NCBI GenBank assembly: GCA_016932045.1
Contig: JAFGDO010000024.1
Span: 1 to 32,784, forward strand
Length of the DNA stretch: 32,784 nt
Source: Candidatus Dojkabacteria bacterium
Lineage (GTDB): Bacteria > Patescibacteriota > Dojkabacteria > JAHIVN01
Direction of reading: 5' to 3'
Below, in pieces: positions 3,658 to 13,323 of this stretch (position 1 is its first letter; every line of letters begins with the position of its first letter). Position numbers and translations under genes: made by a program. The notes under the pieces are model-generated. The model was not told where the DNA came from, did not search any database, and saw only the letters and a program-made list of their open reading frames with translations.

Positions 3658-3675
3658 AGATTTTAGAAAATTATT

Positions 3676-3710
3676 AATCTCGTTACAGAGTTTTGCTCTG
3701 TAACGAGATT
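3676..3710 (+). terminator. Strong hairpin ending the ribosomal-protein transcript
   Basis: A perfect 15-base-pair stem (3676-3690 with 3696-3710, left arm AATCTCGTTACAGAG) with loop TTTTG lies 19 bases after the rplL stop. No T-run follows directly, so it may be a processing or 3'-protection stem or a Rho-assisted terminator rather than a classic intrinsic one. Confidence 0.7.
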
Positions 3711-3719
3711 ATGTAGTCA

Positions 3720-3748
3720 TTGTTTCAAATACCTCTTTATAGTATAAT
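3720..3748 (+). promoter_or_regulatory. Promoter of the ligase cassette
   Basis: TTGTTT (3720-3725) and a perfect TATAAT (3743-3748) are separated by 17 bases, just downstream of the rplL hairpin. No other gene start lies before the 7TM gene at 3850, so this probably drives the five-gene cassette with a leader of about 95 bases. A second TTGACT at about 3791 lacks a good -10 partner. Confidence 0.65.
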
Positions 3749-3849
3749 CCCAATGTAAAAGACAAAACTGTCCAGCCCCCTTGTGTTTGGTTGACTGATA
3801 TTTGATGACTGAGGATAAATTATAAATCTTTAGTTTTTAATTGAAACAT

Positions 3850-4536
3850 ATGAACCCAATTATACAAACACTTGTTGAAACCAAAGGTGTCCCGGAAACG
3901 TCAATTATACTTCTGCTTACTCTTCCTATAATAGCAACAATTATTGCAATCTGGCGGCAAATAGTAGGCCTCAGAACTTTTGGAATATATGCTCCAATCC
4001 TTATCACATTTGCTTTTTATCAATTCGGAATTACTCCGGATGGCATAAACGTTGGACAGGGATTAAAATATGGCTTGGCCCTATCGATCGTTGTTTTTGT
4101 CTCGGCTACATTAGCACATGAAATGACAAGAAAAATCCGCTTACATTATTTACCTAAAATGTCCATCGTCCTTTCGATCGTAGCAATGGCAGTTTTTATA
4201 TTTATTGGACTTGCTGCTGGCCTCGATAAAGGTGGTTTTATATCTGTCGATACTCTCCCCGTTCTCCTTTTAATCACTGTTTCAGAGCAGATGATCAGTC
4301 TATATATAAAAAAGGGTCGTAAAGCAGCATACTTTCTGACAGTTGGCACACTGGTCATATCAGTACTATCCTACTATCTAATTTCTTGGAAATGGGTTCA
4401 CGAGACTCTTCTTAAGTATCCATTGATATCTCCTGCAACATTGCTGGTAAACCTTATTATTGGAAAATGGACAGGCTTTAGGTTCAAAGAATACTTTAGA
4501 TTTAAAAACATTCTAGTATCAAGTGAGTCTGATTGA
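3850..4536 (+). CDS. 7TM (UUP1 / 7TM_transglut-type) membrane protein
   Basis: The protein of about 228 residues has roughly seven hydrophobic segments. It resembles the C-terminal 7TM half of the UUP1 / inactive-transglutaminase-7TM family, with motifs such as GLRTFGIYAPILITFAF near the start and SPATLLVNLIIGKWTGFRFKEY at the end. The soluble inactive-transglutaminase half that usually precedes this domain is absent. In other bacteria this family sits beside a RimK-like ligase (alpha-L-glutamate ligase-like) and a RimB-like protease, as here, so it may be the membrane component of the ligase system; that role is inference. The last 14 bases overlap the next gene. ATG at 3850 is preferred; a TTG at 3841 is in frame. 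Confidence 0.72.
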   Translation: MNPIIQTLVETKGVPETSIILLLTLPIIATIIAIWRQIVGLRTFGIYAPILITFAFYQFGITPDGINVGQGLKYGLALSIVVFVSATLAHEMTRKIRLHYLPKMSIVLSIVAMAVFIFIGLAAGLDKGGFISVDTLPVLLLITVSEQMISLYIKKGRKAAYFLTVGTLVISVLSYYLISWKWVHETLLKYPLISPATLLVNLIIGKWTGFRFKEYFRFKNILVSSESD

Positions 4537-5941
4537 AACTTTAAAAAACCAAAAGAAGGTTCTAGGCATAAATGAGAGAAATCTCAAGTATATCCGTCCT
4601 TTGAATAAGAAAAAAGCAAAAAGAATTGCTGACGATAAACTTTTGACAAAAATTATTCTGACAAAAGCAAATATCCCAGTGCCAAAACTTATCGCCTCCA
4701 TCGCAAATTACACCGAGCTTGAAAATTTCAACTGGGATAATCTTCCAAAATCTTTCGTCATAAAACCTGTAACAGGTCTTGAGGGTGGTGGGATAGAGAT
4801 ATTCTACAACCGCGACCGAAACGGCAATTGGATTAAAGCAGATAAAAGCAAGGTTTCACTAACACAACTAAAGGATCTTGCCCGAAACATTCTTGACGGA
4901 AAATACTCTCTTCACAATACTCCCGACAAAGTCTTCTTTGAAGAAAGAGTCAAATTCCACAAAGCATTCAAATATTACGCTTATAAAGGTGCTCCAGATA
5001 TCAGAGTAATCACTTATAATTTCATTCCAATTATGGCTATGATTCGCCTGCCAAACAAAGAATCCGATGGCAAAGGTAACCTTGCAAAAGGATGTGTAGG
5101 AGCAGGAATTGATGTCGCAACAGGTGTTACAACATCTGCAATTATAGGCAAAAGCCAGCCCATTGAAAATGTCCCTGGTACATCGCTACGATTTGGAGGG
5201 TTAAAAATCCCATACTGGAATAAAATTCTCAGGTATGCCGTAGAAGCCCAGAAGGCAACAGGACTAGGCTTTGCTGCTATTGACTTTCTAATTGACAGAG
5301 AACAAGGCCCTGTAGTTGTAGAACTTAATGCTCGTCCAGGCCTTTCTATTCAGCTTGCAAATAAGGACGGTATGAGATGGCGACTGGAAAAGGCGCGAGG
5401 GTTAAAAGTAAAAAGCGTAAGTCATGGAATACGTCTTGGAAAAGACTTATTCGGTGGAGAAATTGAAGAAGAAGTTGAGAATATAACTGGTAAACAAGTT
5501 ATAGGATTTGTAGAATGGGTAACAATATTTGGGAAAAAACAAGATCAGCAGGAAAGAGTCAAGGCTAAAATAGATACTGGTGCTTTATTTACATCAATCG
5601 ACACTAAGCTGATGATTAAACTTGGATATAAAGATGCCCTGGATTATTTCGCAAAATTTAAAATTCCAGATACTCTCACACGAGCAGAGGCAAAAGAACT
5701 TAGCCAAAGGATAGGTGAAAAGCTCGAGAAACATGATGATATTGTTGGCCGTGCCATTGTTCATTCAAGCCACGGAACAACACTACGACCAACAATAGAG
5801 ATCCCCATATCTATATCTGGTGTAGAAATAAAGGTCAGGGCAAATGTGGTTGACAGAAGCCGCCTGATCTATCCTGTTATTGTCGGTAGACGCGATTTAA
5901 CTCAATTTATAATCGACCCAATCAAAAAGTTTAAGGGGTAA
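4523..5941 (+). CDS. RimK-like ATP-grasp ligase fused to a RimB-like retropepsin
   Basis: Residues 1 to about 300 match alpha-L-glutamate ligase-like proteins. They include VLGINERNLKYIRPLN (13-28), ADDKLLTK (36-43), the ATP-grasp loop KPVTGLEGGGIEIF (81-94) and the metal-binding end ELNARPGLSIQLAN (267-280). Such enzymes form amide bonds through an acyl-phosphate. Residues 325-472 match the family named ATP-dependent zinc protease/RimB: FVEWVTIF, the aspartic-protease-like KAKIDTGALFTS (348-358) with its single DTGA, then a VGRRDLTQ end. In most genomes these are separate proteins, so the fusion implies coupled ligation and trimming of one product (inference). The GTG start overlaps the 7TM gene by 14 bases, suggesting translational coupling. 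Confidence 0.85.
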   Translation: MSLIETLKNQKKVLGINERNLKYIRPLNKKKAKRIADDKLLTKIILTKANIPVPKLIASIANYTELENFNWDNLPKSFVIKPVTGLEGGGIEIFYNRDRNGNWIKADKSKVSLTQLKDLARNILDGKYSLHNTPDKVFFEERVKFHKAFKYYAYKGAPDIRVITYNFIPIMAMIRLPNKESDGKGNLAKGCVGAGIDVATGVTTSAIIGKSQPIENVPGTSLRFGGLKIPYWNKILRYAVEAQKATGLGFAAIDFLIDREQGPVVVELNARPGLSIQLANKDGMRWRLEKARGLKVKSVSHGIRLGKDLFGGEIEEEVENITGKQVIGFVEWVTIFGKKQDQQERVKAKIDTGALFTSIDTKLMIKLGYKDALDYFAKFKIPDTLTRAEAKELSQRIGEKLEKHDDIVGRAIVHSSHGTTLRPTIEIPISISGVEIKVRANVVDRSRLIYPVIVGRRDLTQFIIDPIKKFKG

Positions 5942-5959
5942 CCTATTGAGAAATTTTCT

Positions 5960-6931
5960 ATGATTAAAAGATATACTAAAAATATAAATTTTGACTTATA
6001 TTTAAACGCAGCCCACAAGCTTGGCATTAAATATAATAGTATAATAAAGACGAAAAACATCGGCTATTTCGAAAAAAATGGGAAGAGATTAGTAACGCTA
6101 GGACACTGGATTGGGATTAATAACGCAATTTCTCATATTTTCGCAACAAAAAAATATATTTCCTACCAACTGTTGGCAGCAAAAGGCCTGCCTCATCCAA
6201 AGGCAAAACTCATAGAAGAAACTTGCAAATTCGTCGATATCGAAAAGCTATCTATCCTAGTACCTAAACCTTGGGTTGTAAAACCGCTAAAAGGATCAGA
6301 AGGAAAAGGCGTTTCAGTAAAGTTAACTAAAGGTGAAGATCTCAAAAAAGCAGTCGACTTTGCAAGACAAATACACAAGACTACCATCCTTGAAGAATAC
6401 GTAGAAGGTAACCACTTTAGAATTCTTGTATTTAGAGGCAAAATTATCGATATTGTAAAAAGGATCCCAGCTTACGTAGTAGGAAACGGCAAAGATTCAA
6501 TAAAACAATTGATCGAGAAGAAAAATAGCCGAAGAGAAAAGGCTGGAATGGCTGCAATAAGAGTTGACGAAGAGCTACTAAGACAGCTTAAGGAGCAGAA
6601 ACTTTCTATTGACTCTATCGTAGGAAAAAAAGTAAAGGTAGAACTACGCAAAAATTGTAATTTGTGTGCTGGCGGTGAAACCAAGCGAATTAGGTACAAC
6701 CATATACATAAAGACAACTTAAAGATGTTTATTGAAGCAGTAAAAGCATTGGAGCTTGATCTGGGTGGTATTGATTTCATCACACCCGACATCTCCGAGT
6801 CTTTCCACAATGTTAAATGCGCAATAAACGAGATAAATAAAGCTCCGATGGGAAATGTACACTATTTTGCAGATATGGAGCTAAATAACTTTACGTCAAA
6901 AGAAATTTTAACAACTTATTTTAACTTATAA
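5960..6931 (+). CDS. Free-standing cyanophycin-synthetase-like ATP-grasp ligase
   Basis: The 323-residue protein resembles only the central ATP-grasp part of cyanophycin synthetase (CphA). The parallels are TKKYISYQLLAAKGLPHPKA (63-82), WVVKPLKGSEGKGVSVKL (105-122), LEEYVEGNHFRILVFRGKI (144-162), the pair PAYVVGNGKDSIKQLI, CNLCAGGE (233-240), and the metal site GGIDFITPD (269-277) with INEINKAP (289-296). The Mur-ligase half of CphA is missing here, but a protein like it is encoded two genes downstream. By family it would activate a carboxylate with ATP and add an amine. The substrate cannot be read from the sequence; aspartate or arginine should not be assumed. It lies 18 bases after the preceding stop. 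Confidence 0.8.
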   Translation: MIKRYTKNINFDLYLNAAHKLGIKYNSIIKTKNIGYFEKNGKRLVTLGHWIGINNAISHIFATKKYISYQLLAAKGLPHPKAKLIEETCKFVDIEKLSILVPKPWVVKPLKGSEGKGVSVKLTKGEDLKKAVDFARQIHKTTILEEYVEGNHFRILVFRGKIIDIVKRIPAYVVGNGKDSIKQLIEKKNSRREKAGMAAIRVDEELLRQLKEQKLSIDSIVGKKVKVELRKNCNLCAGGETKRIRYNHIHKDNLKMFIEAVKALELDLGGIDFITPDISESFHNVKCAINEINKAPMGNVHYFADMELNNFTSKEILTTYFNL

Positions 6932-6942
6932 GCACAGAAACA

Positions 6943-7848
6943 ATGAAAATTGGAATATTTGGTTCGCCTCAAACACCGGAGTCACATTGGCTTGACGAAG
7001 AAGGACAAAAAAGGAAGCACGATGTTGTCAGATTTTCAATTGATGAAATCGCCTTTAAAGTTAAAAATGATGAATTCAAAATAATTTCACAATATGATTT
7101 CAGTACCTTTGATATATTCCTTGTAAGAGGTATGTGCAGAACATACTTTGTGAATAAAATCCCATTCGATAAATCGACAGAATCACTTCTTTTTTTACGA
7201 TATGTCAGTGACATACTCAATAAGCCAATTGTCGATGAAAGACTCACAAAAAGCACAATGATTTTAAGCAAGATGGCAACAGCCTTAAACTTAAGTAGAG
7301 AAAAGCTTCCTCAACCAAATACTCTTCAATTTACAGGTAAAGCCCAAGTATTGAAAGAAGTAGACGACTTTCCCTATCCTGTGATTATCAAAAATCCTGC
7401 AGGTCGAAAGGGAGAAAACATGTATAAAATTGATACAAAAGAAGATTTGATAAAGTTCTTGGAAGAAATGCCCGAGCAGCTGCCTTTTCTCTTTCAAGAA
7501 TATTTACCAACTGACGGGGATATAAGAGTACTAGTAATCGGATATGATACCATAATAGGAGCAATGAAAAGGCACCTTGTCCCGGGAGACTTTAGGGCAA
7601 ACATATCTCGAGGAGCCGATGCAGAAGAGTTTAAGCTTACAGATGAAGTTATTGATATTGCAAAAAAAGCAGCGATGGTTACGCGTACTGAATTCGCTGG
7701 AGTAGATCTCATTGAGTCGAAGGGAAAATATTACGTTATTGAAGTAAACCGAACACCACAATTTAAGGGATTTCATAAGTATACCGGAGTAGACCCATCT
7801 CCATTTATCTTTGATTATCTTGAAAAGAAGGTTGAAAATCAAAAGTAA
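6943..7848 (+). CDS. RimK-family ATP-grasp ligase
   Basis: The 301-residue protein has the RimK/GshB-type ATP-grasp order. A pre-ATP domain (MKIGIFGS) is followed by VDERLTKSTMILSKMATA (97-114) and PVIIKNPAGRKGENMYKI (146-163) for ATP phosphates. Then come FQEYLPTDGDIRVLVIG (184-200), RANISRGADAE (218-228) and the metal-ligand end FAGVDLIES / YVIEVNRTPQFKG (251-276). Relatives add glutamate or other amino acids to proteins, peptides or cofactors such as lysine-biosynthesis carrier, tetrahydromethanopterin or ribosomal S6. It is the third ATP-grasp protein in this operon, 11 bases after the previous gene and overlapping the next. Specificity is unknown. Confidence 0.85.
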   Translation: MKIGIFGSPQTPESHWLDEEGQKRKHDVVRFSIDEIAFKVKNDEFKIISQYDFSTFDIFLVRGMCRTYFVNKIPFDKSTESLLFLRYVSDILNKPIVDERLTKSTMILSKMATALNLSREKLPQPNTLQFTGKAQVLKEVDDFPYPVIIKNPAGRKGENMYKIDTKEDLIKFLEEMPEQLPFLFQEYLPTDGDIRVLVIGYDTIIGAMKRHLVPGDFRANISRGADAEEFKLTDEVIDIAKKAAMVTRTEFAGVDLIESKGKYYVIEVNRTPQFKGFHKYTGVDPSPFIFDYLEKKVENQK

Positions 7849-9079
7849 AAAACCACTCCTTATTAACATCACTGGAACATGCGGCAAAACAATAACTGCC
7901 AAAATTATTGAGATCGTCTTAACCAAATCAGGTTATAGAGTGGGTCTTGCTAGCACCATAGGAATATACTTCAAAGGTAGAAGGGTCAAGAAAAAAGATA
8001 GATCCGGCCCAAAGTCTTTCCAATATTTATTTCAAAGATCTAAAGAGCTAGATGTTGTGATATGCGAGAATGTTCTACGGCATATACGCCACGACACCTA
8101 CTACCCTGCTCTATCTGACGTATGTTTGATAACAAATGTCTCCGATGACCATATTCATCAGACAAAAACAAAGACTGTAAGAGAAATAGCACAAATTAAA
8201 AGCAAAATTCTTAAAAGATCTAAGAAAAATGGATTTATTATCCTAAATGGCGACAATAAATATACACTTAACATTGCTCAAGCCAATACTGACAAGAAAC
8301 TCATATTATTTACAACAAAGCCGAAGAAGGTTAAACTCTTAAAAAAAATAAAACCACTGGCTATATACCTTTACAAAAAGCCTCAAATATTAAAAGTTAG
8401 TAATTATAAAATGGAGCAAGTGGTGAAAGATGTAAGCAAATTACCCCTAACTTTGAATCTAAAGCTTACATTCAATATCTACAACTTACTGGCTGCAATA
8501 AGCGTTTTAGATAACCTTCCAGGTATAAGCCTGTATTACAATCAACTACAAAAAACTTTGGCGAAAATAGTGCCAAGTTATTCAAGCATCCCAGGAAGAT
8601 TCAACATTTTCGACTTCGGAAAATTTACAGTAATACTTGATAATGCAAAAAATCCCTTAAGCTATAAAAAGTCTTTAACGGCAGCAAAATCCATACCTCA
8701 TAAAAGACTTATTACAGTATTAAAAGCTTCAAATACAAGAACTAGCCAATTTATAAAAAAGATAGGCCAGATTGCTGCGCGACATTCAGACTTTATCTAC
8801 ATTAAAGAATCAAGGCAACCAAAGGGAAGAAAGAGAAAAAGGATAAAAGGAGAAACAGCAGCACTGCTAAAAGAAGGAGCATTAAAAGAAGTGTCAAAGC
8901 CTAATAAGCTAAAAGTCATATTGGATGAAGAACAAGCGGTAAAAAATGCTATTTTGAAAGCAAAAGCAGGAGATCTCTTGCTAGTCTTTGGATATAGAGT
9001 CGATGCCTTGCATAAGTTAATCAAAAGTATGCAAAAAAATGAGCTACACTCCCTTAAGGCTTCTCCGAATTACATCTAG
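7811..9079 (+). CDS. Free-standing CphA-like Mur-ligase domain protein
   Basis: The protein of up to 422 residues matches the C-terminal Mur-ligase half of cyanophycin synthetase. The P-loop ITGTCGKT is at 20-27, and ENVLRHIRHDTYYPALSDVCLITNVSDDH spans about 86-114, parallel to the CphA segment around ET..GGIL and TN..DH. Further matches are NIYNLLAAI (222-230), PGRFNIF (261-267), LDNAKNP (276-282, usually DYAHNP) and GETAALLKEGAL. Mur ligases form amide bonds through acyl-phosphates. With the CphA-like ATP-grasp two genes upstream it makes a split pair. The start is unresolved: in-frame TTG codons at 7811, 7820 and 7832 all overlap the preceding gene. The 3' end overlaps mreB by 36 bases. 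Confidence 0.8.
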   Translation: MIILKRRLKIKSKKPLLINITGTCGKTITAKIIEIVLTKSGYRVGLASTIGIYFKGRRVKKKDRSGPKSFQYLFQRSKELDVVICENVLRHIRHDTYYPALSDVCLITNVSDDHIHQTKTKTVREIAQIKSKILKRSKKNGFIILNGDNKYTLNIAQANTDKKLILFTTKPKKVKLLKKIKPLAIYLYKKPQILKVSNYKMEQVVKDVSKLPLTLNLKLTFNIYNLLAAISVLDNLPGISLYYNQLQKTLAKIVPSYSSIPGRFNIFDFGKFTVILDNAKNPLSYKKSLTAAKSIPHKRLITVLKASNTRTSQFIKKIGQIAARHSDFIYIKESRQPKGRKRKRIKGETAALLKEGALKEVSKPNKLKVILDEEQAVKNAILKAKAGDLLLVFGYRVDALHKLIKSMQKNELHSLKASPNYI

Positions 9080-12075: not shown

Positions 12076-12705
12076 TTATTTCTTTTTCACGCTACTCTTC
12101 TCTATAGTCGGAGCTAACTTATGCATAGCTCTATGAGCATAAAGTTCATAGTCAGAAAACAGTTCCCCCTTTGTAAACCATAAGTTTATCTCGTATTCTG
12201 CTTCTTTTTCGTTTCCGGAGGCATGAAGTATATTATAAACCGAACGTAACTCATCATTTGCTACTTCATAATTATCCCAGCTAAAATCTCCTCTGATAGT
12301 ACCCGGAACTGCTGTTTTAGGTCTTGTATCTCCCGCTAATTTTCTAACTACTTCTATAGCATCTGGTCCTTCCCAAACCATAGCTAAAACTGGGCCTCTT
12401 GTAATAAGCTCAATATTCCACTTTTTAATCAATTTTCCTAATTCAAGTGCATCATTAGTACCAAATTTTTCTTTCGGATCAATACCTTTCTTTTTGTATT
12501 CATCCAGGGTATGCTGCCCGAATCTTTTTAGATTTTCCTCTGAACTGGCATAATGTTTATCTCCCATATCCTCAGTAGCCGCAAGAAATTCAAGGGCAAC
12601 CAGTTTTAATCCGACTCTTTCAAGCCTTAAAATTACCTCACCCATGAGACCTCTCATAACAGCATCATGCTTTATAACAACAAGTGTTCTTTGATTTTCA
12701 ATCAT
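12076..12705 (-). CDS. ndk: Nucleoside-diphosphate kinase paralogue (second in tandem)
   Basis: Ndk transfers the gamma phosphate among nucleoside triphosphates through a phospho-histidine. The 209 residues are well above the usual 140 because of an insert at about 52-105 between the early helices and VWEGPDA. Catalytic features are kept: the lysine in VVIKHDAV, VRKLAGDTRP, GTIRGDF and the active-site NILHAS with His. The normally conserved KPDG is KHDA here, a departure near the nucleotide phosphates. It follows its paralogue by 9 bases, so the two are cotranscribed and likely arose by duplication. The paralogue differs mainly in the insert and tail. Function is probable, but substrate preference may have shifted. 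Confidence 0.85.
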   Translation of the reverse strand: MIENQRTLVVIKHDAVMRGLMGEVILRLERVGLKLVALEFLAATEDMGDKHYASSEENLKRFGQHTLDEYKKKGIDPKEKFGTNDALELGKLIKKWNIELITRGPVLAMVWEGPDAIEVVRKLAGDTRPKTAVPGTIRGDFSWDNYEVANDELRSVYNILHASGNEKEAEYEINLWFTKGELFSDYELYAHRAMHKLAPTIEKSSVKKK

Positions 12706-12714
12706 AGAGATATA

Positions 12715-13323
12715 TTAATAAATGTCTAAATAATCGATTCTTTCATAGTAACTCAAATCCTTATATTTTTTCCCAAACCAGATCTTTATTTCTCTTCTAG
12801 CCTCTTCAACACAATCTGAAATATGCAGTAAATTCTTAAATACAATTCTGCCTGATCTTATGGCAAGATCAGGTGTATCAAATGCAAATGACCCCCGAAT
12901 AGAGCCTAGTTCGGCAAAAGTTGGCACAGTACTTCCTGCTAACTTTCTCACTCTCTCTACTGCCTTATTACCTTCCCAAACTGAAATAATCACCGGAGCC
13001 TCGCATAGATATTTTGAAAGATTTTTATAAATTATCTTTCCAATCTCCAAAGGATCATCTACTCCGAAGTCTTGTTGTACTAACTTTTTATTTCCCTCAT
13101 AATTTTGAATCGTTTTCTTGCCTACGCCTTCAAGCCACTCTTTACTATTTCCTGGATAATGTTCTGCCACTTGCTTTTTTTGTGGTAAAACCATTCTTGC
13201 TGCGCAAAGTTTGAGACCCTGTTCCTCGAAACGTTGAAATATCTTTCCTACAAGCCCCCTTTTGACTCCATCAGGCTTAATCATTACAAAGGTTTTTTCT
13301 ATAGATGGATATTTCTTTTCCAT
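12715..13323 (-). CDS. ndk: Nucleoside-diphosphate kinase (first in tandem)
   Basis: The 202-residue protein carries the canonical FVMIKPDGVKRGLVG start, an insert at about 60-110, then ISVWEGNKAVERVRKLAGSTVP and GSIRGSF. The catalytic histidine is in NLLHISD. The C-terminal tail (REIKIWFGKKY) resembles that of the paralogue downstream. Because KPDGV is intact here, this copy is the better candidate for general nucleotide-pool balancing. It lies 49 bases after the comEC metallo-beta-lactamase frame on the same strand, placing it at the end of a probable comEA-comEC-ndk-ndk transcript. Confidence 0.9.
   Translation of the reverse strand: MEKKYPSIEKTFVMIKPDGVKRGLVGKIFQRFEEQGLKLCAARMVLPQKKQVAEHYPGNSKEWLEGVGKKTIQNYEGNKKLVQQDFGVDDPLEIGKIIYKNLSKYLCEAPVIISVWEGNKAVERVRKLAGSTVPTFAELGSIRGSFAFDTPDLAIRSGRIVFKNLLHISDCVEEARREIKIWFGKKYKDLSYYERIDYLDIY

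Follow-up and report, generated by a model that had tools for sequence, protein, structure and literature searches.

The closest described relative of the locus examined here is the rloABC system of Pseudomonas aeruginosa, the subject of a genetic study in 2025 (PMC12239564). RloA, a retropepsin of the RimB/RloA family, is secreted and cuts stretches of eight or ten glutamates, deletion of rloB or rloC rescues rloA1-3 mutants, and rlo mutants show an altered cell shape (PMC12239564). Comparable chemistry is seen in other systems. According to the available part of one report, RimK together with RimB gives free polyglutamate of up to 28 residues in vitro, and a RimBK hybrid, present mostly in Flavobacteriales and Rhodobacterales, carries a retropepsin active on polyglutamate and an ATP-grasp ligase on one chain, with RimB N-terminal to RimK; a 7TM partner is not mentioned in that part (PMC11957791). 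Glutamate is also ligated by the methylofuran enzymes, whose product is a single large, branched polyglutamate chain with a coenzyme as the acceptor (PMC8141765). Finally, the tails of tubulin are edited by ligases and by MATCAP/TMCP carboxypeptidases (PMC10499314).

The stretch of DNA analyzed here (the window; 32,784 nucleotides) belongs to a 1.46 Mb genome that is 94.5% complete and is assigned to the class Dojkabacteria (Patescibacteria) through its named relatives (e.g., L077, L078, L094, L102, and L112). Five plus-strand genes occupy positions 3841-9079 between rplL, the last gene of an upstream rplK-rplA-rplJ-rplL group, and a convergent mreB. Profile matches confirm the five products, at the places where the reading of the sequence alone (hereafter the sequence-only reading) had put them: a 7TM protein, B (3841-4536; PF14402, 6.8e-23; RloB model NF052267, 3.4e-16), a ligase-retropepsin fusion, C-A (4523-5941; TIGR02291, 3.7e-75; PF14397, 7e-61; PF05618 retropepsin, 1.2e-7, above the cut-off), a CphA-like ATP-grasp half, D (5960-6931; TIGR02068 positions 205-452, 5.8e-55; PDB 7wac, 7.4e-35), a RimK-family ATP-grasp ligase, E (6943-7848; TIGR00768; PF08443, 1.4e-30), and a CphA-like Mur-ligase half, F (7811-9079; TIGR02068 positions 481-861, 3.8e-75; PF08245 and PF02875; PDB 7txv, 1.1e-31). 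The junctions are tight, as that reading had stated with a range of 11-18 bases, and the range fits the first three (a 14-base overlap between B and C-A and gaps of 18 and 11 bases after C-A and D). At the fourth, E and F overlap by 38 bases with the listed start of F, or by 17 with TTG 7832, its likely start. The more likely start of B is ATG 3850 rather than 3841. It is plausible that the five genes form one transcript. Between rplL and the cassette lies a stem-loop of 16 pairs (3675-3711, strand not assigned), which is a possible end of the rplL transcript; terminator matches did not rise above those in shuffled sequence, and the stem-loop was reported in the minus-strand orientation only.

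Comparison with rloABC reveals the same three kinds of protein, i.e., a RimB/RloA-family retropepsin, a PF14402 7TM domain, and an ATP-grasp ligase probably of the TIGR02291 type, with the polyglutamate-binding residues kept. The sequence-only reading had presented the locus as a candidate undescribed system built on a 7TM/ATP-grasp/retropepsin trio known from other bacteria; the trio matches rloABC and has thus already been characterized genetically. The arrangement is nevertheless different. Whereas P. aeruginosa has three genes, a secreted RloA, and an RloB with a transglutaminase domain, in the cassette the retropepsin sits at the C-terminus of the ligase, there is neither a signal peptide nor a transglutaminase domain, and three extra ligases are present. 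A search of the open literature returned no paper on a Patescibacteria version of the system and no description of a writer-eraser fusion with a 7TM partner, of the add-on ligases, or of the MATCAP swap discussed below.

In C-A, an ATP-grasp ligase of probable RloC type (residues ~1-310) is followed by a RimB/RloA-type retropepsin (~325-470), which is the opposite of the order in the RimBK hybrid. The fusion that the sequence-only reading had called RimK-retropepsin is thus real, while its ligase is probably of the TIGR02291 type and not RimK proper; it aligns with most of the TIGR02291 model at 252.9 bits, below the cut-off of 314.2. The structure model of C-A (pLDDT 91.9) places the ligase fold nearest to RimK-RpsF (Foldseek top match 5zk6), CphA, and ArgX-LysW, and the key ATP-grasp residues are essentially invariant across 148 proteins. 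The catalytic D351-T-G motif is present, and together with D351 the predicted polyglutamate-binding residues K349, R422, and R445 are kept, as judged from their inferred equivalence to RloA residues. Among 112 retropepsin-only proteins the residues aligned with RloA K46, D48, R114, and R137, which serve in substrate binding and catalysis (an equivalence based on the alignment), are kept in 92, 108, 107, and 96, respectively. C-A has no strongly hydrophobic stretch, and its retropepsin, being fused to the ligase chain, is probably cytosolic.

B is 231 residues long as listed, scores 81.9 bits with PF14402 against a cut-off of 25, and matches the RloB model at positions 315-506 only, which correspond to the C-terminal 7TM domain. 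The profile search gave no match to the transglutaminase family PF14400, i.e., this domain is absent from B. The AlphaFold2 model has a pLDDT of 93.3, and no structure match was significant (best PDB match E 0.53), so that neither a GPCR nor a transporter fold could be assigned. The charges of the loops, read by the positive-inside rule, predict a cytosolic C-terminus, which in the window reads RF-KNILVSSESD. A poly-acidic tail was considered as a general feature of B and rejected, the tails of the Moranbacteria proteins not being acidic. Other genomes retain the 7TM part of B but vary in its outside domain, which may be a transglutaminase, a PKD domain, or absent: a homolog from outside the phylum (L133) has both PF14400 and PF14402, and the longer Patescibacteria proteins examined (L107, L162, and L163) carry a PKD domain instead of the inactive transglutaminase.

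The sequence-only reading had described a single cassette of five genes. As a conserved unit this set is rejected, and a search for the same order in relatives reduces the conserved core to B and C-A. A B homolog is found in 35 of the 39 genomes of the Dojkabacteria class (window genome included), and B lies directly upstream of C-A in all 34 Dojkabacteria loci read. The same pair is present at named Patescibacteria loci (L076-L131), and a hand count of strong matches finds C-A in 114 of 380 sampled Patescibacteria genomes. Outside Patescibacteria, A, B, and C each have a gene of their own, usually arranged A-B-C as in rloABC, and B is near 510 residues in length. What follows the pair varies: nothing, one to three RimK-like genes, a D-like or longer D-like gene, a GNAT-ATP-grasp fusion, a DUF3541 gene, or MATCAP. 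The DUF3541 protein recurs in cassettes of distant Patescibacteria (L032:8101-9057, L033:8097-9053, L097, L182:3645-4622, and L228). None of the PADLOC models for anti-phage defense matched the cassette at 1e-3.

D, E, and F are accordingly exchangeable add-ons to the core. E exceeds the cut-off of the RimK family model TIGR00768 (147.1 versus 143.4 bits). D and F resemble the ATP-grasp and Mur-ligase halves of CphA, respectively; however, they are encoded by two genes, lack the N-terminal domain, and are not the core of the system, and as separate genes they score 186.7 and 253.5 bits against a TIGR02068 cut-off of 850. F is diverged: its P-loop reads GTCGKT, and where cyanophycin synthase has DYAHNP the aligned residues are DNAKNP, without the usual His. 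F is linked to the cassette in one of the 39 class genomes, that of the window; as a class-wide component it was rejected, the matches elsewhere being distant Mur ligases (22-35% identity). The view that having both CphA halves in such a cassette is rare was borne out, F-type proteins being linked to it only in the window, in L117, where D and F are adjacent, and in L182, where they are fused. We conclude that D and F belong together because L117 pairs them and the CphA-like protein in the L182 cassette is almost complete (771.6 bits with the cyanophycin synthetase model).

Relatives of the window locus add a second type of eraser. At 36 loci, C or C-A runs on into a MATCAP domain, and the HExxxH motif with a downstream EG is present in 35 of these. 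The retropepsin DTG/DSG motif is kept in only four of the 36 MATCAP-fused proteins versus 108 of the 112 others; in the remaining four non-fused proteins the Asp is replaced by Asn, and three of these (L223, L224, and L228) have a separate MATCAP gene. The C-terminus of B changes along with the eraser. It ends in -EE, like detyrosinated tubulin (PMC10499314), at 34 of the 36 MATCAP-fused loci and in -E at the other two, whereas without the fusion -EE is found at four of 135 loci, each with a MATCAP gene nearby, and in six of 1488 other open reading frames. MATCAP fusion, decay of the retropepsin, and a terminal -EE or -E on B coincide at L162-L176, L189-L207, L034, L040, and L052. The converse fails, since B lacks -EE at several of the loci where MATCAP is encoded separately. 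A ribosome binding site for the next gene was rejected as a general cause, as -EE persists while the distance to the following start codon ranges from 12 to 434 bases (e.g., L163, L167, L193, L198, and L206). One further locus encodes, beside a RimK-like gene, a 702-residue protein (L042:9476-11584) that contains an HEIGH motif but matches neither Pfam nor NCBIfam, possibly an unrecognized metallopeptidase.

For the association of -EE with MATCAP, Fisher's test gives 5e-29, a value that we set aside because the loci are related and include a few duplicates. A tree built from the ligase domain gives about three origins of the MATCAP fusion and about four of -EE, with every -EE gain on a MATCAP branch, for which a rough parsimony estimate gives about 0.005; an independent-pairs test on the tree did not reach significance, the pairs being too few. 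This quick tree has many weak forks, and the link is therefore suggestive of co-evolution of the B tail with the MATCAP takeover, not proof of it. Its bearing on the window is indirect, given that the window B ends in -SESD, that Moranbacteria tails are non-acidic, and that PF08014 (MATCAP) has no match in the window genome (94.5% complete). The parallel with tubulin is likewise one of analogy: no tubulin is involved.

The tail of B is our best acceptor candidate on two grounds: its end changes with the type of eraser, and RimK and ArgX, the ligases of the nearest solved structures of this fold (RimK-RpsF and ArgX-LysW), extend a carrier protein at its C-terminus. In the scenario that we favor, C-A would be writer and eraser on a single cytosolic chain: its ATP-grasp domain would ligate glutamate or a similar amino acid to the acceptor carboxylate, and its retropepsin, as a dimer, would trim the acidic chain. 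B would act as the partner in the membrane and, through its short cytosolic tail, probably as the acceptor, an assignment that for the window is an inference from relatives. D, E, and F would be optional ligases that lengthen or branch the chain, with D and F providing backbone-adding and side-chain-adding activities in the style of cyanophycin synthetase. The two-gene core would probably attach a glutamate-rich tail and take it off again at the membrane, in a manner resembling the editing of tubulin tails. That the whole cassette is a Patescibacteria variant of Rlo operating in this way strikes us as an evenly balanced proposition. The sequence-only expectation of reversible amino-acid tailing at a membrane, with four predicted ATP-dependent ligase sites and one protease, is supported and builds on the known trio; no evidence was found for a wall target, and both the fusion and the topology predicted for B argue for an acceptor on the cytosolic side of the membrane. 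Against our reading stands the secretion of RloA (PMC12239564), from which the P. aeruginosa chain should be outside, while the C-A fusion is what would place the eraser in the cytosol here.

Three other readings were considered. The enzymes might produce polyglutamate or a branched chain resembling cyanophycin, either free or linked to lipid, which B exports and the protease sets to length. The free polyglutamate made by RimK with RimB (PMC11957791), the cyanophycin-synthetase halves D and F with the near-complete protein of L182, and the P. aeruginosa eraser acting outside, which means that something must cross the membrane, are all in keeping with this proposal. We nevertheless regard it as unlikely: B has no significant match to a transporter fold, many genomes have B and C-A without a polymerase-like add-on, and a polymer does not predict the -EE tail with MATCAP. 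That same tail is left unexplained if B, as a sensor or scaffold, does no more than regulate C-A and hold it at the membrane, while some other protein or a wall precursor serves as acceptor. Such a role would suit the exchange of outside domains around a constant 7TM part, as in receptors, the shape change of P. aeruginosa rlo mutants, and the convergent mreB that adjoins the cassette in many Dojkabacteria; the mreB neighborhood is, however, limited to some families, and we consider this role improbable. The last reading takes ribosomal proteins as the targets, by analogy with the action of RimK on S6: in the window the cassette comes after rplK-rplA-rplJ-rplL, many Dojkabacteria families likewise have it behind rplL, and E is a RimK-family ligase. 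Yet the core lies away from rplL in Moranbacteria, Kerfeldbacteria, and others, and its conserved partner is a membrane protein, which makes ribosomal targets very improbable.

The preferred reading, with the B tail as acceptor, would name a concrete candidate for the substrate of the Rlo system (PMC12239564), namely the C-terminus of a 7TM protein. We also raise, tentatively and accepting that it may well prove wrong, a more general membrane tail code, in which a fused ATP-grasp writer reversibly lengthens the cytosolic end of a receptor-like 7TM protein, retropepsin and MATCAP are interchangeable erasers, and the tail becomes -EE under MATCAP; the eraser swap in this proposal rests on about three independent fusions and four -EE gains. 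If true, it would connect a system that is widespread among Patescibacteria, most of them uncultured, with the ligases and carboxypeptidases that edit tubulin tails.

Elsewhere in the window, two tandem, diverged nucleoside-diphosphate-kinase-like genes are found on the minus strand (12076-13323), recognized by eye from their translations. A similar tandem is also present in some relatives.
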